Shown here in pieces: positions 15,343-25,093 of a stretch of 62,027 bases of DNA. The stretch is taken from contig NZ_FXTM01000009.1 of the NCBI RefSeq assembly GCF_900182585.1, positions 1 to 62,027 on the forward strand, in the 5' to 3' direction. A program made the position numbers and the translations under genes. This stretch comes from Balnearium lithotrophicum. GTDB taxonomy: Bacteria > Aquificota > Aquificia > Desulfurobacteriales > Desulfurobacteriaceae. Numbering within the stretch: the stretch's first letter is position 1; each line of letters begins with the position of its first letter. Below the pieces are notes generated by a model. That model saw only the letters and a program-made list of their open reading frames with translations. It was not told the origin of the DNA and made no database searches.

Positions 15343-15817
15343 GACATCTCTTGTGAACGAATGTAAGCTCTTTTCAACTTTTAACGAAAAAGAGAAGGAA
15401 GTACTATCGGAGTTTCTTAATGAGGTCTCTTTTAAAAAGGGAGAAGCCCTCTTTGAAGAGGGCAGTGGAGCAGATGAATTTTTCTTCATAAGGAAAGGGA
15501 AGATAGGTCTATACCGAAACGATAACTTTGGAAATCTAACAAAGGTAGCTGAAGTTCACGGAGGAGTTCCTTTAGGGGAGTGTGCCTTCTTCCTTGGAAC
15601 ACCACACTCACTTAGAGCTATAGCAGAAGATGATGTTAGGGCTCTCTCGCTTTCAAGAGAGAAGTACGAACTTCTAAAGAGTAACTATCCCCAACTTGCA
15701 ATAAAGTTAATTGAAATCATTAATGGAATTGTTTCTGAAAGGCTTAAAGAGGAGGATAAGAAGTTTGCAGATATATTCTGCTTTTTTAGGGTTGGAGGAC
15801 AAGGATGGAGAAGATAG
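15335..15817 (+). CDS. Cyclic-nucleotide-binding-domain protein
   Basis: Single cNMP-binding-like beta-roll of 160 residues. Its phosphate-binding cassette looks degenerate (VPLGECAFFLGTPHSLRAIAEDD, residues about 82-104). There is no DNA-binding domain, so it is not a CRP-type transcription factor by itself. Such proteins are often found within group 3b hydrogenase operons; their role is not established. ATG 15335 overlaps the read-through end of hydA, and its own end overlaps the membrane subunit by 13 bases, so it is cotranslated with the operon. Confidence 0.85.
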   Translation: MVKTSLVNECKLFSTFNEKEKEVLSEFLNEVSFKKGEALFEEGSGADEFFFIRKGKIGLYRNDNFGNLTKVAEVHGGVPLGECAFFLGTPHSLRAIAEDDVRALSLSREKYELLKSNYPQLAIKLIEIINGIVSERLKEEDKKFADIFCFFRVGGQGWRR

Positions 15818-17661
15818 TTGGAATGTTAATAGTTGTTCCTTGGATTCTATCTGTTTTAGTTTTTCTCTCATCCAACCACAGGTTGAGACAATTTATAACC
15901 TTTTTGTCCCTTCCTCTACTTACAGGCCTATCGTACATCGTATGGAATTCTCACCTTCCCATTTTTATTGAAACACCTGATTGGATGGAAACAGCAGTCA
16001 CTGTATTTGATTATCTACTACTCGGTTATTTTCTACTCCAGGGAGTAAGATTTAAAAATTTCTTAGTCTTTATTCTTGTCATATTCCAAGTATTCCTACT
16101 TACGTGGGCTCTTCTAATACTGCCCCATTCAGAAACACCTTCAATCTATGTTGATAAGCTGACAGTCTTCTTCTACTTTTTGGTTTCAATTGTCGGTTCA
16201 ATCATCTGTATATACGCAACAAAGTATATGGAACAGGAGGACTTAAGTAGGGAAAATAGGTTTGTATCAGTGCTTCTCTGGTTTTTAGGGGTTATGAACT
16301 TTATAGTCTCTGTTAATAACATCGAATGGTTCTTTGCACTGTTTGAAACAACAACTCTCGCTTCCTACGTCTTAATCAGGTTTAGATGGGATGAAGTATC
16401 CATTAAAAATGCTCTTAGAGCTCTCTGGATGAACCAGATTGGAGGAGTAGCCATCCTCCTCTCCATACTTTTTGCAGTCAAATACTATGGAACGTTTTTC
16501 TTTACAGATTTCCTTAAGTTAGGAATTCCTACTGCTTCTATGATTCCCTTTGGATTTCTCTCAATTTCTGCCCTTGTAAAGGGAGCTCAAATGCCCTTTC
16601 ACAGGTGGCTGTTGGGAGCTATGGTAGCTCCAACTCCCGTTAGTGCAATTCTCCACTCAGCCACAATGGTGAAGGTTGCTCCCTATCTGATACTCAGACT
16701 CTCACCTGTAATAAAGGGGACCCTCCTTGCCAAACTTCTCATTGTGACGACGGGATTTGTATTTGTAGCGGCCGGCCTTCTGGCTCTAACTCAGGAAAAT
16801 TTTAAGAGGATTCTTGCCTACTCAACAATTTCCCTGTTGGGCCTCATGATGCTAACTGCAAGTATTGGAAGCCCCGTTGCTGTTACAGCATCCCTCCTTT
16901 TGATTCTTTTCCACGGAATAGTAAAAGCCCTTCTCTTTTTGGAAGCTGGAATTATGGAGAAGGAGTTTAATGCAAAGTACATAGAGGATATGAGGAGGCT
17001 TGTAGAGAGAGCTCCTATCACCGTTCTTTTTATTGTGCTTGGTTTTATGAATATGACACTTGTTCCGTATGGAATATTTGTAGCAAAGTGGATAACGCTT
17101 GAGGAAGCCTGTAATTTCCTCTACCACGGGGCGTACATAGCGTCTGTTATCCTCATAACTGTTGGAGGGGTTATCTTAACTGTCCTTTACTTTAAAGTTA
17201 TAGGTGTAATTTCAAGGAAAAGAGGTGAGTTTGTAAGCTTTAAATTGGAGAAGCTTCCGCTAACGTATCTTTTAACTACAAGCACCTATTTAACACTTGC
17301 CATCTTGGGTTCAATCTTCATAGCTCACCTCAGTACAGACTTTATATCCCCAATAGTAAAGGAGATTACACATGAAATTCCTATGATAGAAGCAAAAGGC
17401 CTCACCCTCACTACTCCCTACTCAAAATTATTCGGCTGGCAGATTGTTGGAGCAATACTTTTACTGATAATTGTTCCTCTACTGGCCTACTTCATTCACT
17501 TTAGAGCAGACAAAATATACGAGTATACATGTGGGGAAAACCTCCAGTTAAGAATTGGAACCTATGATTTTGTATGTATCTCAAAACTTGAGCCATTTGT
17601 AGAAACAATATCTATTGCCTTTTTCATCCTCACTCTCATTTTAGGAGGAGGACTGGTATGA
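15805..17661 (+). CDS. echA: Ech-type hydrogenase membrane subunit A (proton-pumping, NuoL-like)
   Basis: Large antiporter-like membrane subunit of a group 4 hydrogenase, 618 residues with about 14-16 membrane segments. The proton_antipo_M domain (about 120-420) holds the conserved FETTTLASYVLIRF, KGAQMPFHRWLLGAMVAPTPVSAILHSATM (split here for length as KGAQMPFHRWLLGAM and APTPVSAILHSATM) and the HGIVKALLFLEAG segment with its membrane lysine. It would move protons or Na+ during electron transfer between ferredoxin and H2. Start ATG 15805 overlaps the preceding gene; its stop overlaps echB by four bases (ATGA). Confidence 0.93.
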   Translation: MEKIVGMLIVVPWILSVLVFLSSNHRLRQFITFLSLPLLTGLSYIVWNSHLPIFIETPDWMETAVTVFDYLLLGYFLLQGVRFKNFLVFILVIFQVFLLTWALLILPHSETPSIYVDKLTVFFYFLVSIVGSIICIYATKYMEQEDLSRENRFVSVLLWFLGVMNFIVSVNNIEWFFALFETTTLASYVLIRFRWDEVSIKNALRALWMNQIGGVAILLSILFAVKYYGTFFFTDFLKLGIPTASMIPFGFLSISALVKGAQMPFHRWLLGAMVAPTPVSAILHSATMVKVAPYLILRLSPVIKGTLLAKLLIVTTGFVFVAAGLLALTQENFKRILAYSTISLLGLMMLTASIGSPVAVTASLLLILFHGIVKALLFLEAGIMEKEFNAKYIEDMRRLVERAPITVLFIVLGFMNMTLVPYGIFVAKWITLEEACNFLYHGAYIASVILITVGGVILTVLYFKVIGVISRKRGEFVSFKLEKLPLTYLLTTSTYLTLAILGSIFIAHLSTDFISPIVKEITHEIPMIEAKGLTLTTPYSKLFGWQIVGAILLLIIVPLLAYFIHFRADKIYEYTCGENLQLRIGTYDFVCISKLEPFVETISIAFFILTLILGGGLV

Positions 17662-18503
17662 CAAATTTATTTTCGATAATAGCTACCCTTCTTTCTCCTA
17701 TTGTAGGAGGATTTGTGTACGGAATAGAAAGGGTTTTAAGGGCAAGGATGCAAAATAGAATTGGGCCTCCTCTTCTTCAGCCTTTTTACGATTTCCTCAA
17801 GCTGATGGATAAAAGACCTGTGATTATTCACTCGTTCCACGCATTCATGGGAATCATGTACTTGATAGGAACGTGGTTTTCCCTCTACGTCCTATTGGCA
17901 GGTGGCGATATACTAATAGCAATATTCTTTCACGTTCTTTCTCTTGCCTTTTTGGTTCTTGGAGGTTTTAGCGTAAGGTCTCCCTACTCCGTAGTTGGGA
18001 GTATCAGAAAGCTGACCCATATGCTTGCTTACGAACCAATATTCGTACTTACCGCTGCAGGACTGTACCTTGTAACAGGGACCTTCCAGATTTCAGAAAT
18101 GTTAAAATCTCCATTCATTCCCCTTCTTTATTTACCTTTGGTCTTTGTAGCATTCATCCTTTCCATCCCAGCTGTACTTGAGAAATCCCCCTTTGATGTT
18201 GCGGAAGCCCATCAAGAAATAATAGGTGGATCCGAAATTGAGTACTCAGGAAAGTTCTACGAGGCCGTTTATACTGGAAAGTGGCTTGAGTACGTTTACG
18301 TGTTCTTCTTTATTTTCCTGTTCTCAGGAAATCACTACTGGCTTGGACTTCTTCTTGTTTTACTGTCGTTTCTTTTAGTAAACCTTATAGATAACTCAAC
18401 AATGAGGGTTAATTTCAGGCAAATGGTTTCGTTTCATTGGTACATACTAATTCCTCTTGTTGCAACCAACGTAATGCTCTTAGCTCTCTGGAGGATTCAA
18501 TGA
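17658..18503 (+). CDS. echB: Ech-type hydrogenase membrane subunit B (NuoH-like)
   Basis: Membrane anchor for the peripheral arm, 281 residues and about eight membrane segments. It shows the NuoH/HyfC family signatures GIERVLRARMQNRIGPPLLQP (abbreviated: GIERVLRARMQNRIGPP), KSPFDVAEAHQEIIGGSEIEYSG in part (FDVAEAHQEI, EIEYSG), and a C-terminal NSTMRV segment. It overlaps echA (17658) and echC (18500) by four bases each, as expected for a co-translated complex. Confidence 0.94.
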   Translation: MTNLFSIIATLLSPIVGGFVYGIERVLRARMQNRIGPPLLQPFYDFLKLMDKRPVIIHSFHAFMGIMYLIGTWFSLYVLLAGGDILIAIFFHVLSLAFLVLGGFSVRSPYSVVGSIRKLTHMLAYEPIFVLTAAGLYLVTGTFQISEMLKSPFIPLLYLPLVFVAFILSIPAVLEKSPFDVAEAHQEIIGGSEIEYSGKFYEAVYTGKWLEYVYVFFFIFLFSGNHYWLGLLLVLLSFLLVNLIDNSTMRVNFRQMVSFHWYILIPLVATNVMLLALWRIQ

Positions 18504-19057
18504 ACTTAAAAGTTTTCAGGAAAAAGTCCCCATGGATACTTCACTACAACACAGGAAGCTGTAACGGTTGTGACATTGAGATTCTTGCCTGCTTAGCTCC
18601 AAAGTACGATATCGAAAGGTTTGGAGCCCTTAACAGAGGGAACCCTAAACAGGCAGACATATTTCTCGTAACTGGTCCTGTGACAAAGAGAGCAAGGGAA
18701 AGATTGATAAGGCTGTTCATGGAAATTCCTGAGCCAAAAGTTGTAGTAGCAGTTGGAGCTTGTGCCTGTACCGGAGGTGTATTCAGGGGAATGTACAACG
18801 TTGAAAACGGTGTAGATAAAGTTATTCCCGTTGATGTTTACGTTCCGGGATGTGCTGCCAGGCCTGAGATGATAATAGATGGTATTGTGAAGGCCTTAGA
18901 AATCTTAGAAAAGAAAAATAAAGAGATTGAGTTTCCACGTAAATGTAAGTGTTCAAAAGGTCTTGAAGGTGCTGAGTATCTCTTAGGAAAGCAGCTCAAC
19001 AGAAGAAAGCTTGTCTTGGATGGATTGAGGAGGTGCAATGAAGATAGAGGAGATTAA
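18500..19057 (+). CDS. echC: Ech-type hydrogenase small subunit C (NuoB-like)
   Basis: Carries the proximal 4Fe-4S cluster of the group 4 enzyme. The cysteine pattern is NTGSCNGCDIEILAC (20-34), VGACACTGG (about 86-94) and VPGCAARPE (about 120-128). 185 residues from ATG 18500, which overlaps the echB stop (ATGA) and follows GGAG; an ORF start 63 bases earlier is inside echB without a ribosome site. The C-terminal 45 residues are basic. It ends 20 bases inside echD. Confidence 0.94.
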   Translation: MNLKVFRKKSPWILHYNTGSCNGCDIEILACLAPKYDIERFGALNRGNPKQADIFLVTGPVTKRARERLIRLFMEIPEPKVVVAVGACACTGGVFRGMYNVENGVDKVIPVDVYVPGCAARPEMIIDGIVKALEILEKKNKEIEFPRKCKCSKGLEGAEYLLGKQLNRRKLVLDGLRRCNEDRGD

Positions 19058-19382
19058 GTTGCCTTTAAGGGATATAAGGAGGGCCATCAAAGATTTCTAC
19101 GACCCTGAAAAGTGGCACTTTATAACCGTCAATGGAACAGATTTGGGTGGGAAAGTAAAACTTAAATGGTTTTTCGCGAGCTATGAAGACGTTAACAGGT
19201 ATACTGTTTTTGTTTCTGAAGCTGAGTATAACGATGAAGTCCCAACTATAACTTACATAGTTCCCTCAGCCTGGATAGCAGAGTGGGAACTTGCAGACCT
19301 TTTAGGTTTAAACGTTGAAGGAGCAAGGAAGGGATTGTTTTTAGAACCAGATAGTCCTCAAGCACCTTTAAGGAGAGGTTAA
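19038..19382 (+). CDS. echD: Ech-type hydrogenase subunit D (NuoC-like)
   Basis: Short peripheral subunit of 114 residues with the NuoC-type domain: ITVNGTDLGGKVKLKWFF, a Tyr-rich strand, and WIAEWELADLLGLNVEGA near 80-97, then the LEPDSP segment. No metal ligands are expected. It lies between the small and large subunit genes, exactly as in ech operons, and its stop codon directly abuts the echE ATG. Confidence 0.9.
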   Translation: MKIEEIKLPLRDIRRAIKDFYDPEKWHFITVNGTDLGGKVKLKWFFASYEDVNRYTVFVSEAEYNDEVPTITYIVPSAWIAEWELADLLGLNVEGARKGLFLEPDSPQAPLRRG

Positions 19383-20465
19383 ATGGGAAACAGAATAACC
19401 ATACCATTTGGAAGTCAGCACATAGCTCTACCAGAACCTATAAGATTTGTTTTTCAAACAAGAAACGAAAAAATAGTAGATGTTGATGTTGATGTGGGAT
19501 ACGTTCACAGGGGAATAGAAAAGGCCTGTATGACCAAGTTCAAGTACATGCAGGTCGGATACGTAGTTGCAAGAGTCTGCGGACTCTGTGCTATTTCCCA
19601 TACGTTAGGATACGTTACTTCTATTGAAAAACTAATGGGGATTGAGGTTCCTAAAAGGGCTCTCTACCTCAGACTAATTGTAAGCGAACTTGACAGAATA
19701 CACTCTCATCTTTTTGCAATGGGACACACTGTCGAAGCTGCGGGGTATGAAAATCTCTTTATGAAAACCTTTAGAGAGAGAGAATTGATAATGGAGCTCC
19801 TTGAGCTCCTGACGGGAAATAGAGTCCAGTTTGACTATGCAGCGCTCGGCGGAGTTAACAGAGATTTAAGTTCTGAGGTTGAAAAAGAACTTAAAGAAAA
19901 GCTGATTCTCTTAAAGGAAAAATGTTGTGAATTAAGAGACATTTTTGAAAATGATTACACTCTAAAGTATAGATGGAAAGGAACGGGAGTTGTTACACCT
20001 CAAATGGCAAAGGAGCTCAACGTAGTTGGGCCTCCTGCAAGGGCTTCTGGACTGAAAATTGATATGAGGGAAACAGGATACCTTCCTTTCAAAGAGGTCG
20101 GATTACGAGTTATAACGAGAACTGAGGGAGATATCTATGCCAGAAACTTAGTTAGAGCAGATGAAGTTTTAAACTCAATTGAAATGGTTGAAAATGCTTT
20201 AGAGGGACTACCAGAAGGAAATATAAAGGTTTCTGTAAAGGGCTTACCTAAGGGTGAAATGTTTGTTAGGGTGGAAGCTCCAAGGGGAGAGCTCTTTTAC
20301 TATATCAAAGCAAGTAAGAAACTGGTACTTGATAGATTAAGAATAAAGGTTCCTACATTTTCAAACATTCCAGTAATGAAGGAACTTTTTGTTGGAATGG
20401 ACTACTCAGACGTTCCAGCAACAGTCATAAGCTTTGACCCCTGTTTATCATGTACTGCAAGGTAG
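19383..20465 (+). CDS. echE: Ech-type hydrogenase large subunit E (NuoD-like, [NiFe])
   Basis: Nickel-iron catalytic subunit, 360 residues. The N-terminal motif is RVCGLCAISHT (about 64-74). The C-terminal motif DPCLSCTAR has all four cysteines in total and is the very end of the protein, so there is no C-terminal extension to be cut by a maturation protease. This contrasts with the 3b alpha subunit upstream, where the equivalent first cysteine is a TGA. Family context (echABCD before it, ferredoxin after it) is clear. Confidence 0.95.
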   Translation: MGNRITIPFGSQHIALPEPIRFVFQTRNEKIVDVDVDVGYVHRGIEKACMTKFKYMQVGYVVARVCGLCAISHTLGYVTSIEKLMGIEVPKRALYLRLIVSELDRIHSHLFAMGHTVEAAGYENLFMKTFRERELIMELLELLTGNRVQFDYAALGGVNRDLSSEVEKELKEKLILLKEKCCELRDIFENDYTLKYRWKGTGVVTPQMAKELNVVGPPARASGLKIDMRETGYLPFKEVGLRVITRTEGDIYARNLVRADEVLNSIEMVENALEGLPEGNIKVSVKGLPKGEMFVRVEAPRGELFYYIKASKKLVLDRLRIKVPTFSNIPVMKELFVGMDYSDVPATVISFDPCLSCTAR

Positions 20466-20476
20466 GAGGAGAAAGA

Positions 20477-20839
20477 ATGAAGGAAATGTTTATAGAATCA
20501 ATCAAAAACCTATTTAAGAAGCCTGCAACTGTTAAATATCCTGAAGAACCCTCTCCACCTCCTCCAAATTACAGAGGCCTTATAGTGTATAAGGAGGAAC
20601 TGTGTATATTCTGTACAAGATGTGAAATGGTCTGTCCTCCTGGTTCCATAAAATTTACCTCCAGTTCAGATGGTTCAAAGAAATTCCACTATAATCCCTA
20701 CCTGTGTATATACTGTGGAGAGTGTGTCAGAGCTTGTCCTAAACAGGGTTGTCTCACACAAATCGAGGATGTAGCTCCTCCAGCCACACACGAAGAGGTT
20801 CCAAATTGGGACAAAATAGAGGGAATATCTAAAAGTTAA
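20477..20839 (+). CDS. echF: Ech-type hydrogenase ferredoxin subunit F (2x 4Fe-4S)
   Basis: Polyferredoxin-type subunit that exchanges electrons with soluble ferredoxin. Two motifs are seen: CIFCTRCEMVCP and CIYCGECVRACP. About 120 residues from ATG 20477, chosen because AGGAGG ends about eight bases before it; the ORF otherwise extends 27 bases into echE. It is the last gene of the hydrogenase operon; dus is convergent 20 bases beyond. No terminator hairpin is obvious. Confidence 0.93.
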   Translation: MKEMFIESIKNLFKKPATVKYPEEPSPPPPNYRGLIVYKEELCIFCTRCEMVCPPGSIKFTSSSDGSKKFHYNPYLCIYCGECVRACPKQGCLTQIEDVAPPATHEEVPNWDKIEGISKS

Positions 20840-21874: not shown

Positions 21875-22216
21875 ATGAACGTTTCAAATTTAGCCAGGGA
21901 AGAAATACCTTTCATCTTAGGTTATGCTGCAGTTAAATTTAACGGTGATTTAATAGATTCCTTCGGCGAAGAAACACAAAAAATTTTGGACAACATAAAA
22001 AATATTGTTAAAGAGTATCTAACAATATACAAGAACTTAGGAGAATACTCCATAGGAATGCCAAAAGAAATACTTATGAGCACAACAGAAATATTTATTT
22101 TAGTTAGAATTTTCTACAATGAGGAAATTTTCCAAGTTGCAATTCTTCAAAGTGATGCAAATCTTGGCTTTACACGTTATAAACTACACGAGTACATTCA
22201 AAAATTAACTAAATAA
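21875..22216 (+). CDS. Roadblock/LC7-like protein (1)
   Basis: 113 residues, not recognised by a strong signature. The predicted pattern helix, two strands (YAAVKFNGDLIDSFG), helix, two strands (EIFILVRIF, FQVAILQSDANLGFTRY), helix matches the roadblock/LC7 fold. The NLGFTRYKLHEYIQKL end resembles the last helix of that family. Start ATG 21875 with AGGAGGT. It is followed after 17 bases by the metallo-beta-lactamase-fold gene. The function of these small proteins is usually to bind or activate a small GTPase; one lies 2.4 kb away. Confidence 0.55.
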   Translation: MNVSNLAREEIPFILGYAAVKFNGDLIDSFGEETQKILDNIKNIVKEYLTIYKNLGEYSIGMPKEILMSTTEIFILVRIFYNEEIFQVAILQSDANLGFTRYKLHEYIQKLTK

Positions 22217-22233
22217 TCCAATCTGAGGTTGTC

Positions 22234-23055
22234 ATGGGACTAAAAATTGAAGAATTAAAGGGCGGAAATATTGATTTAAATAAACCAGTTGTTCTTTATG
22301 AAGATGAGAACCACAGAGTGGCTTGGGTTGGAAGTTCTGAGGATTTTATATTTAGGTGCAATGCTTACCTAATTTCATCAGGGGACAAGAACGTCCTGTT
22401 AGACCCAGGAGGAATCCAGCACTTTCCTCAGGTTAAGGATAGGGTTTCACAGCTTATAGATCCTAAAGAGGTTACCCATATTGTTGCTCATCACCAGGAC
22501 CCTGACGTTGCAGGGTCTACTCCTAAGTGGTTGGAGATTAATCCGGAAATAACAATCGTAACTACTCCAAGGACTAAAGTTCTTCTTCCCTACTACGGTT
22601 TTGATAGAAACAAAGTTAAATGGTTGGACGTTAGCGTTTTGGATGATACGATGCTTGAGCTTGGAGATGGAAGTACTTTAATCTTCCTTACAGCTCCATT
22701 CCTTCACTTTCCTGATGCATTTGTTACTTACGATTCAAAATCTAAACTGCTGTTTTCTGGGGACATTTTCGCTGCAATCCAACAGAAGTGGGAGCTTATC
22801 GTTTCTAATTTTGAAAGGCACAAGACAGAAATGATGTACTTCCACGTCTACTATATGGCTTCGAATAAGGCACTAAAGTACTTCGTCGATAAAATCAAGC
22901 CCTTCCCAATTGAAGCTATAGTTCCACAGCACGGTTCTATAATACCAAAGGAGTTTGTGAAGGATGCCCTTGAATTTTTAGAAAACTTGAAGTGTGGAAT
23001 TGACCTCCTCTATGAGGAGTCTCCAATTCAGATAGTTTTAAGCGATTTAATTTAG
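22234..23055 (+). CDS. Oxygen-binding di-iron protein (ODP), metallo-beta-lactamase fold
   Basis: 273 residues of the flavodiiron-like lactamase fold without the flavodoxin domain. Metal ligands visible are HHQDPD (86-91, the variant of the HxExDH motif found in ODPs), H158 in FLHFPD, D177 in SGD and H233 in PQHGS. ODPs bind O2 at a di-iron site and act as sensors in some bacteria; catalysis is less likely without a flavodoxin domain. It lies between two roadblock-like genes on the same strand, which suggests a sensor in a GTPase circuit. Start ATG 22234. Confidence 0.85.
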   Translation: MGLKIEELKGGNIDLNKPVVLYEDENHRVAWVGSSEDFIFRCNAYLISSGDKNVLLDPGGIQHFPQVKDRVSQLIDPKEVTHIVAHHQDPDVAGSTPKWLEINPEITIVTTPRTKVLLPYYGFDRNKVKWLDVSVLDDTMLELGDGSTLIFLTAPFLHFPDAFVTYDSKSKLLFSGDIFAAIQQKWELIVSNFERHKTEMMYFHVYYMASNKALKYFVDKIKPFPIEAIVPQHGSIIPKEFVKDALEFLENLKCGIDLLYEESPIQIVLSDLI

Positions 23056-23066
23056 ATGGAGGAGCC

Positions 23067-23447
23067 ATGGCAAGCAAAAAGGAGATGTTGGAGCAGGTTT
23101 TATCAGATTTGTCAGATTCTCTTGGAAGTGACCTTCTTGGAGCTCTTATTGCTACTCCTGACGGTCAGGTTGTAGTTTCCCTTTTGATGAAAGGTGACTT
23201 GAATGCCCAGAAACTTGCAGCTATGGCAGCTGCTGTTGTCGGTACGTCAGATAGACTTTCAAAACTTGTTGAGGCAGGAGACTTTCAGGATGTTCTCGTT
23301 CGCTGCGAGAGGGAAAACATTATGGCAAGAAGAACTGGAAGGAGAGCAATTTTAGTTACAGTTGTCAAGAAGGATGCAAATATAGGACTCCTTAATATAG
23401 AAATCGAGGATGCAGCAAGCAGGATTATCTCAATTTTGGGAAGTTAG
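23067..23447 (+). CDS. Roadblock/LC7 domain protein (2), MglB-like
   Basis: 126 residues. A clear roadblock pattern: leading helix, LIATPDGQVVVS strands, KLAAMAAAVVGTSDRLSKL helix, then RRAILVTVVKKDANIGLLNIEIEDAASRI. Related proteins (MglB) are GTPase-activating partners of MglA-type GTPases. ATG 23067 follows GGAGG. The 3' end overlaps the convergent gene by 18 bases. Confidence 0.88.
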   Translation: MASKKEMLEQVLSDLSDSLGSDLLGALIATPDGQVVVSLLMKGDLNAQKLAAMAAAVVGTSDRLSKLVEAGDFQDVLVRCERENIMARRTGRRAILVTVVKKDANIGLLNIEIEDAASRIISILGS

Positions 23448-24125
23448 AAGTTTTCGGAGCTCCCCAATAATGAAAGGTTCATTTAACTTAAAGTCGGGGA
23501 GCTCTTTCGAGTCTATTATCAATGCTATAAAGTTTTCTCCACTGTAAACTATGAGGAGAAAATATTTAGAGAAAGTCTCAACTATTTCCCCTTCGCTACA
23601 GTTTTTATAGGCTAACGTTTCCTTTATCAAATCTACAATAGAAACTTTAATTTCTGAATTATTCGACTCGTTAGTGATAATATACTTTATACTTTTTTGG
23701 TCAAAGAATTCGCTACTTACTCGCAGAATTTCCCTTTCTATCTCCGATGTAGTTCCTTTATCTTCTCTCAATATGTTTTCTTCAGTTTGAATTGTCTCAG
23801 AGAAATCACCAATGTCAGTAGAAAGTTCCTCTCCTGGAAGTTCAAATTTGTCAGATAAAAGAGAGAACAGCTCCATCTGCCCAATTTGACACCTTCCCTT
23901 TTCAACCTTTAACGGCATCAAATCTACAGATTTTATTTCGTTTTCCCTATCAAAGATGAACTTCAGTCCCTCTATCCCTTCCAAAATCCCATCATTTTCA
24001 ACTACCACATCTATAATATTCTCTCCCTTTATCGAAACTTCCCCTTTCCAGTCTTTACCTTTAACTAAAAGAGTTTTCTTTGTATGAACTGAAAGAAGAC
24101 CAAAGAGAACTTCCTGAAAGGTCAA
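23430..24125 (-). CDS. Uncharacterised protein, possible DUF4388-like N-terminus
   Basis: 231 residues, not firmly recognised. The first 60 residues (FQEVLFGLLSVHTKKTLLVKG then WKGEVSIKGENIIDVVVEN) read like the DUF4388/PATAN domain, which occurs with gliding and pilus-regulating GTPase systems. The middle (90-135) is acidic and probably disordered. The C-terminal 90 residues may be another small alpha/beta domain. Start TTG 24125 overlaps the preceding gene by four bases (TTGA) after GAGGTAAA. Third gene of a GTPase set. Confidence 0.5.
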   Translation of the reverse strand: MTFQEVLFGLLSVHTKKTLLVKGKDWKGEVSIKGENIIDVVVENDGILEGIEGLKFIFDRENEIKSVDLMPLKVEKGRCQIGQMELFSLLSDKFELPGEELSTDIGDFSETIQTEENILREDKGTTSEIEREILRVSSEFFDQKSIKYIITNESNNSEIKVSIVDLIKETLAYKNCSEGEIVETFSKYFLLIVYSGENFIALIIDSKELPDFKLNEPFIIGELRKLLTSQN

Positions 24126-24595
24126 TGTTTACCTCGTCCTAAAATTTTGTCAATATCCTGTGATATTTTAAAAACCCAACTGCGAAGTTTCTTTAAACCT
24201 TTATCTATTGAAAAGTGAGGGGATAGTTCGGGGTCAACAATATAAACAACAAAGAAGTCCAGCTTTTTTGAGAATCCTTTAACTACAAAAACAATCTCTC
24301 TTGTATCCATCTGATAAATTAGCACCCTCGGCGGTTCAAAATTGGCTATTTTAAGTCCCGGATGAGATTTTTCATGAAATTTAAGAGCACTTTGAAAAAG
24401 TTTCTGGGCATAGGGTAACAATCTCTCCACATTATAGTTATCGTTCCTCTTTTTTAAAAAAATTTTAAGGCCATCCGTTCCGACAATAGCGGTTGATATC
24501 CAAGCAGTGTTCTCTACCTCTTCTGACCTTTTTTCAAAGAGTTCTCTTAAATTCCTTACCTCCTGTTCCTCCTTCCTTCTAAAAAGCCCAAACAT
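24122..24595 (-). CDS. Roadblock-like partner (3) of the small GTPase
   Basis: 157 residues. TAWISTAIVGTDGLKIFLKKR followed by a helix and EIVFVVKG... FVVYIVD strands resemble the roadblock fold with a longer N-terminal charged helix; recognition is tentative. It begins directly after the GTPase stop codon and overlaps the next gene, so the three minus-strand genes form one unit. Gene order GTPase, roadblock, DUF4388-like is consistent with a GTPase and its regulators. Confidence 0.5.
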   Translation of the reverse strand: MFGLFRRKEEQEVRNLRELFEKRSEEVENTAWISTAIVGTDGLKIFLKKRNDNYNVERLLPYAQKLFQSALKFHEKSHPGLKIANFEPPRVLIYQMDTREIVFVVKGFSKKLDFFVVYIVDPELSPHFSIDKGLKKLRSWVFKISQDIDKILGRGKH

Positions 24596-25093
24596 TTAAA
24601 TCTCTCCTGAAAGTTCTTCTAAAAATTTTTTAACCTCTTCCTGCTGGGTCGGGTCAATAACTTTAATTGGAACTCCTAAGAGGGAAAATGTCTCCTTTTT
24701 AGAGGATGTAAGCTTCTCAGGGTATGTTACCAAAAGCCTTTTAAAGGCAATTTTAAAGGATTCAAACTGGCTAAAAAAGTCAATATATAGAGATGCATCC
24801 CTAAGCGTTGCTGTTGATGGTACTAAGAAGAGAATACCGTCAAATTTGCTCCCGACTGTTTCCCAAATAAAATCAAACTTTTCTTGCCCAGGAAGACCGA
24901 TAAAAACTATTTCTTTTCCCTTTATCTTAACACTGTTTATTTCGACTCCAACGGTAGTTGTCGTGGGGAGCGCCTCTAACGATTCTATGTCTATTTCATT
25001 TTCCTCTGTCCCAACAAATTCTTCAGGATTCACGTTTTTTATAAACGATGTTTTCCCTGCATTGTAAGGACCACAGACAATAACCTTTTTCAC
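24596..25093 (-). CDS. Small GTPase, COG2229/CvnD-like
   Basis: 165 residues. G1 GPYNAGKTS (8-16), G2 threonines TTTTVG (44-49), and G3 GLPGQEKFDFIWE (66-78), the form seen in the MglA-related GTPases that pair with roadblock proteins. The NKxD G4 motif is not clear (VTYPEK at about 122-127), so nucleotide specificity is uncertain. Eight bases downstream of the radical SAM gene, and probably the end of a long minus-strand transcript starting at carB. Confidence 0.85.
   Translation of the reverse strand: MKKVIVCGPYNAGKTSFIKNVNPEEFVGTEENEIDIESLEALPTTTTVGVEINSVKIKGKEIVFIGLPGQEKFDFIWETVGSKFDGILFLVPSTATLRDASLYIDFFSQFESFKIAFKRLLVTYPEKLTSSKKETFSLLGVPIKVIDPTQQEEVKKFLEELSGEI

Follow-up and report, generated by a model that had tools for sequence, protein, structure and literature searches.

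In the MglA-MglB polarity switch of Myxococcus and Thermus, the roadblock protein MglB acts as the GTPase-activating protein of MglA (PMC9481161, PMC11016934). The oxygen-binding di-iron protein (ODP) is an O2 sensor for chemotaxis that is coupled in Treponema to a chemoreceptor homolog (PMC7666581). HmdII, a paralog of [Fe]-hydrogenase, binds the FeGP cofactor; its role is unsettled between scaffold and sensor, the latter having been put forward as a proposal (PMC7460606, PMC3087415). Here we describe a six-gene cluster in a contig of Balnearium lithotrophicum (NZ_FXTM01000009.1, 62,027 nucleotides, the whole of which is called the window), in which the genes for a roadblock-fold protein (A_113), ODP and a roadblock/LC7 protein (RB) face those for a small GTPase, a second roadblock-fold protein (E_157, or E) and a protein weakly similar to DUF4388 (D_231, or D). 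The position of RB, beside ODP in this heat-loving member of the Desulfurobacteriaceae and beside HmdII in relatives, suggests a single switch able to take different sensors. The window's genome (G000) was compared with sets of 24 genomes from its order and 136 from its phylum, the Aquificota; the close relatives are Thermovibrio or Desulfurobacteriaceae metagenome-assembled genomes.

RB behind hmdII or ODP

RB matches PF03259 above the cut-off (E 1e-9), and the PDB sequences closest to it are those of CvnB5, MglB and roadblock proteins from archaea. Its orthologs are 69-88% identical; between G000 and G004 the protein is 88% identical (dN, nonsynonymous divergence, 0.086) despite a synonymous divergence (dS) of ~1.9, indicating purifying selection. 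In all 12 hmdII loci, distributed over 8 genomes, RB directly follows hmdII; hmd was found in no other genome of the 136, and the window's genome therefore lacks it. These genes encode HmdII rather than Hmd, since their products match TIGR01724 (hmd_rel) and the one from G010 shows full identity across 357 residues to 6huy, the crystallised HmdII of a bacterium, which is assigned to D. thermolithotrophum (PMC7460606). In seven operons (G003, G010, G015, G016 and the first copies of G011-G013) RB lies between hmd and the hcg (FeGP) operon, whose order after RB is hcgA, an hcgBC fusion, hcgD, hcgF, hcgE and hcgG. Pfam matches (HMD, HcgB, HcgC, DUF34/NIF3, HcgF, ThiF and Fibrillarin_2) identify the genes of the G010 copy, and BLAST to that copy identifies those elsewhere; the G016 contig ends within hcgBC, and the adjacency of RB in the first G014 copy is taken from match coordinates only. 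The second hmd copies of G011-G014 are also followed by RB, with no hcg genes beside them.

The four genomes that keep GTPase-E-D and have no hmdII (G000, G004, G005 and G022) carry RB behind ODP instead, and RB is next to one or the other in all 13 genomes encoding D and E. All 8 hmdII genomes fall inside the set with E (hypergeometric p ~0.002, a value that ignores phylogeny). Gene order in the window is dus← A→ ODP→ RB→ ←D ←E ←GTPase ←rSAM ←truD; in its congener G003 it is dus← A→ ODP→ ←hcgG..hcgA ←RB ←hmdII ←D ←E ←GTPase ←rSAM ←truD. An hcg operon lies downstream of ODP in G003, where it is complete, and in G007, at the place where G000, G004 and G005 carry the ODP-linked RB; the apparent absence of RB and the GTPase from G007 was rejected as an assembly break, the contig ending inside the hcg operon. 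ODP-linked and hmdII-linked RBs are separated by seven fixed differences (positions 39, 76, 81, 98, 102, 113 and 117) and 84% of bootstrap trees place the two groups on opposite sides of a branch. A literature search returned no paper joining roadblock, hydrogenase and Hmd, although the search did not cover the paper describing bacterial HmdII, which may already show the roadblock gene in a figure of the gene cluster. In methanogens, roadblock-like genes may lie near MJ0715 and MJ1338 of M. jannaschii.

The facing gene sets

The six open reading frames were confirmed where the original prediction had placed them (Table 1), and each of the six families is conserved in further genomes, so the cluster is not chance open reading frame content. 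The O2-binding protein does lie between two roadblocks as predicted. The recurrence of the gene set, which the prediction had offered as its own refutation test, is found in G000, G004 and G005 and in G022 of another genus, all with A-ODP-RB facing D-E-GTPase. On the plus strand 17 bp separate A_113 from ODP and 11 bp separate ODP from RB; the minus-strand genes overlap or abut, and the 3' ends of RB and D_231 overlap by 18 bp.

Table 1. Genes of the cluster, in window coordinates
Gene	Position	Strand	Description and basis
A_113	21875-22216	+	Roadblock-fold protein, directly upstream of ODP at every locus (AF2, Foldseek, adjacency)
ODP	22234-23055	+	Oxygen-binding di-iron protein, stand-alone metallo-beta-lactamase-type domain (PF19583, PDB 6qrq/6qnm)
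RB (126 aa)	23067-23447	+	Roadblock/LC7 protein (PF03259); orthologs follow hmdII in hmdII-bearing genomes
D_231	23430-24125	-	TTG start; fast-evolving, weak N-terminal DUF4388 similarity (PF14332)
E_157	24122-24595	-	Roadblock-fold protein, Desulfurobacteriaceae only (AF2, Foldseek)
GTPase	24596-25093	-	GTG start; small Ras/Arf-like, G3 GLPGQ, lost G4 (PF00025)

ODP (273 aa) consists of the lactamase-type domain only, without a flavodoxin domain. It matches PF19583 at E 5e-66 and, as its best PDB match, the ‘Oxygen-binding diiron protein’ 6qrq at E 1e-46. The presumed ligands H87, D89, D91, H158, D177 and H233 (HxDxD...H...D...H) align to the solved ODPs 6qrq and 6qnm; domain and ligand set place the protein in the ODP family, and it would be expected to bind O2, possibly NO, at a di-iron site. 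Elsewhere in the same genome, a 567-aa protein joins an ODP domain to a C-terminal GGDEF-like domain (YGGEEF in sequence; L047:6582-8285, +, contig 12), and ODP proteins of similar length recur in the order set; it is a candidate for a separate O2-responsive diguanylate cyclase.

A_113 is directly upstream of ODP in 12 of 12 loci (11 genomes), with perfect co-occurrence, and was not found in the other Aquificota genomes of the 136. In G020 the genes form a one-strand operon, E'-D'-A-ODP-RB' (L044:4865-7459, +), which has a divergent ODP-RB pair and no GTPase of this family. On the A+ODP tree the RB-adjacent state requires three changes; the arrangement was therefore gained or lost more than once. 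In genus g3, two tandem D-like (DUF4388-type) repeats occur in one protein ~6-7 kb from A-ODP (G013 contig 1:1373632-1374222; G012 contig 20:26077-26673).

That the small proteins adopt roadblock folds, a second test set by the original prediction, held for all three. The alpha-beta-beta-alpha-beta-beta-beta-alpha topology is assigned to RB by Pfam and to A_113 and E_157 by AlphaFold2 (AF2) models and Foldseek; neither of the latter two has a Pfam family above its cut-off. The A_113 model is confident (predicted local distance difference test score, pLDDT, 92.4; Foldseek E 3e-6 to roadblock structures), its best matches being MglC (7ct3) and roadblock proteins, while E_157 (pLDDT 85.6; E 1e-5) matches roadblock, MglB and Ragulator structures; overall, the matches of the pair comprise MglC, MglB, Ragulator, dynein light chain and archaeal roadblocks. 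Because profile alignment (hhalign) gave no support for kinship of A_113 or E_157 to RB, their assignment is based on fold. E_157 occurs in 13 of the 136 genomes, always beside D, and D and E share exactly the same 13; a fourteenth weak E match, in G112, was discarded on account of seven internal stops. No relation was found between E and D, or between E and the Aquificota DUF4388 protein. The D family matches DUF4388 (PF14332) in 5 of 12 members, with a best E of 0.0014, and its profile weakly matches that of the DUF4388 protein of the Aquificota; the window's D_231 falls below the family cut-off and has no Pfam match. D is 33% identical between congeners.

The GTPase matches PF00025 (Arf) above the cut-off (E 1e-5). 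Its P-loop (GPYNAGKTS) and switch I (TTTTVG) are recognisable, with key residues invariant in 11 homologs, as expected of the MglA family. Its G3 motif, GLPGQ, has Gly at the DxxG position where M. xanthus MglA has Thr78 (PMC3000849), and thus shares the non-Asp G3 of that family. RB lies three genes away, within the four-gene distance to an mglB homolog used to define the family (PMC4316618). The guanine-specificity motif G4 (N/TKxD) has been lost: the window has TYPE in place of NKxD, the Desulfurobacteriaceae carry TYPE, TYPK, THCD or TFPD, and TKxD occurs only in genus g3. Of the 13 D-E genomes, 12 have the GTPase, G020 being the exception, and a fragment of it also occurs in G018. Genus g3 (G011-G014) retains the GTPase, E-D, hmdII-RB and A-ODP at scattered locations; where the GTPase and E-D are dispersed, the genes around them (RapZ-like, ATP synthase, Fbp-like and Ppx/Ppk-like, named by sequence reading) revealed no consistent output target.

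A GTPase profile finds homologs in 105 of the 136 Aquificota genomes. Among twelve homolog regions, several have a roadblock-DUF4388-GTPase operon (L079, L080, L081, L082 and L085), and others have two of the three genes or the GTPase alone. This operon is widespread in the Aquificota and seemingly uncharacterised, a single paper among those searched mentioning DUF4388, and the core of the cluster is therefore not unique. Since these homologs carry NKQD or NKVD at G4, from which the Desulfurobacteriaceae depart, the window set is, by its sequences, a diverged branch of the widespread module with E as an added roadblock.

A proposed roadblock-GTPase switch and alternative readings

We propose, with slightly more belief than doubt, that these genes encode a roadblock-GTPase switch of the Desulfurobacteriaceae in which RB is the adaptor between a metal-cofactor gas or redox protein and the GTPase. 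Physical coupling, ligand, direction of control and output are inferred as follows. The input in the window would be ODP, with A_113 as a roadblock partner of its own; relatives would instead pair RB with the FeGP-cofactor protein HmdII. The ligand or redox state of ODP would alter an ODP/A/RB complex, and RB, probably a dimer and perhaps mixed with roadblock E, would act on the GTPase in the way that MglB acts on MglA, altering its nucleotide state. D would anchor or read out the GTPase, D and E together tuning or localising it. That a single Ras-like roadblock-GTPase pathway takes HmdII and ODP as interchangeable gas or redox inputs, the former for H2 or a C1 carrier and the latter for O2, is a bolder claim, which we advance tentatively and think doubtful. 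If true, HmdII, a long-orphan protein, would gain a function as a sensor read by a roadblock adaptor, and bacteria would possess a new route for feeding gas signals into Ras-like GTPases. RB, behind every hmdII of the phylum set and behind ODP in hmdII-less relatives, offers HmdII a concrete partner, and the HmdII structure has already been solved from D. thermolithotrophum, an organism with RB behind hmdII.

Several observations weigh against the proposed switch. RB is not adjacent in 7 of the 12 A-ODP loci, making A-ODP a separable unit, and G020, a 99% complete genome, has E, D, A, ODP and RB with no recognisable GTPase of the window GTPase's family. E and RB have no detectable sequence relation, D is only weakly DUF4388-like, and the degenerate G4 makes GTP specificity doubtful. 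Support in the RB tree is modest (81/57), and the swap could have run in either direction. Contacts of RB with ODP and with the GTPase are proposed from comparative data, all from one bacterial family, with few independent events and associations that are phylogenetically non-independent.

The separability of A-ODP favours an explanation by two unrelated converging operons, A-ODP being a pair that detoxifies or senses O2 and RB a remnant of a deleted hmdII-RB-hcg operon that went with the GTPase genes. It is consistent with G010, G015 and G016, which carry GTPase, E, D and RB without A-ODP, and with the position of hmdII-RB-hcg in G003, exactly between ODP and D. We consider it unlikely: the window RB is inverted relative to G003 and starts 11 bp behind ODP, another genus (G022) has the same layout, ODP-linked RBs are strongly constrained and share their seven fixed residues, and G020 retains a divergent ODP-RB pair. 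P-loop GTPases such as HypB and UreG act as metal-insertion factors elsewhere, and RB sits between hmdII and hcgA in all seven FeGP operons read, so the roadblock/GTPase set could be a maturation or cofactor-handling machine, inserting metal or FeGP into HmdII and here loading ODP with iron. This is very unlikely given that RB accompanies the second hmdII copies of G011-G014 even though no hcg genes adjoin them, that four genomes retain the whole set without hmdII, and that HcgA-G alone are named as required for FeGP synthesis (PMC7460606, PMC10100467).

The original prediction had envisaged a GTPase circuit gated by oxygen or NO, perhaps controlling pili or polarity, and linked its oxygen input to an adjacent hydrogenase operon. 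A GTPase circuit with a metal-based sensor input is still reasonable; the link to pili or polarity and the one to the hydrogenase are not supported. The likeness of a roadblock and a small GTPase with a GxPGQ G3 to MglA/MglB speaks for a polarity or pilus controller, the least probable of the readings considered here. A separate MglA-like GTPase with an adjacent roadblock is encoded on contig 14 of the same genome, no pilus or motility gene was recognised near any copy read, distribution within the family is patchy, and the GTPase has lost G4. The contig 14 pair (L045:1373-2441, -) lies by 2-oxoacid oxidoreductase-like genes, with the same order in L070. The hydrogenase-like operon does exist in the window (15805-20839, +; Complex-I-like or group 4 [NiFe]-hydrogenase-like, its large-subunit homolog keeping RVCGLC and DPCLSC), but its link to the cluster was dropped, as a different gene lies beyond dus in the four congeners read.

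Comparison with known systems

The proposed switch resembles the Aquificota operon, in which a roadblock, a DUF4388 protein and a small GTPase are likewise encoded together; the cluster differs in that RB has moved to ODP or hmdII, D has strongly diverged, E is an extra roadblock and the GTPase has lost NKxD. With MglA-MglB it shares a roadblock partner and a small GTPase without the usual G3 Asp, to which it adds roadblocks A and E, the DUF4388-like D, a sensor-type protein in the operon and a degenerate G4; moreover, the window's genome has its separate MglA-like pair. In Streptomyces conservons (CvnA-D), too, a sensor gene lies next to genes for the roadblock CvnB and the small GTPase CvnD (PMC4316618), and the RB profile matches CvnB5 (3leq). 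Neither the six genes nor those immediately around them encode a histidine kinase (CvnA), and the input of the cluster would be ODP or HmdII. The TDE2498/TDE2496 ODP-chemoreceptor pair of Treponema denticola (PMC7666581) similarly sets a stand-alone ODP beside a signalling partner, which in the cluster is the roadblock/GTPase set instead of a chemoreceptor. Finally, the gene for the D. thermolithotrophum HmdII (PDB 6huy/6huz) has, in G010, the same GTPase-E-D genes before it and RB after it, whereas the window's genome, which has no hmdII, keeps those genes with RB behind ODP.

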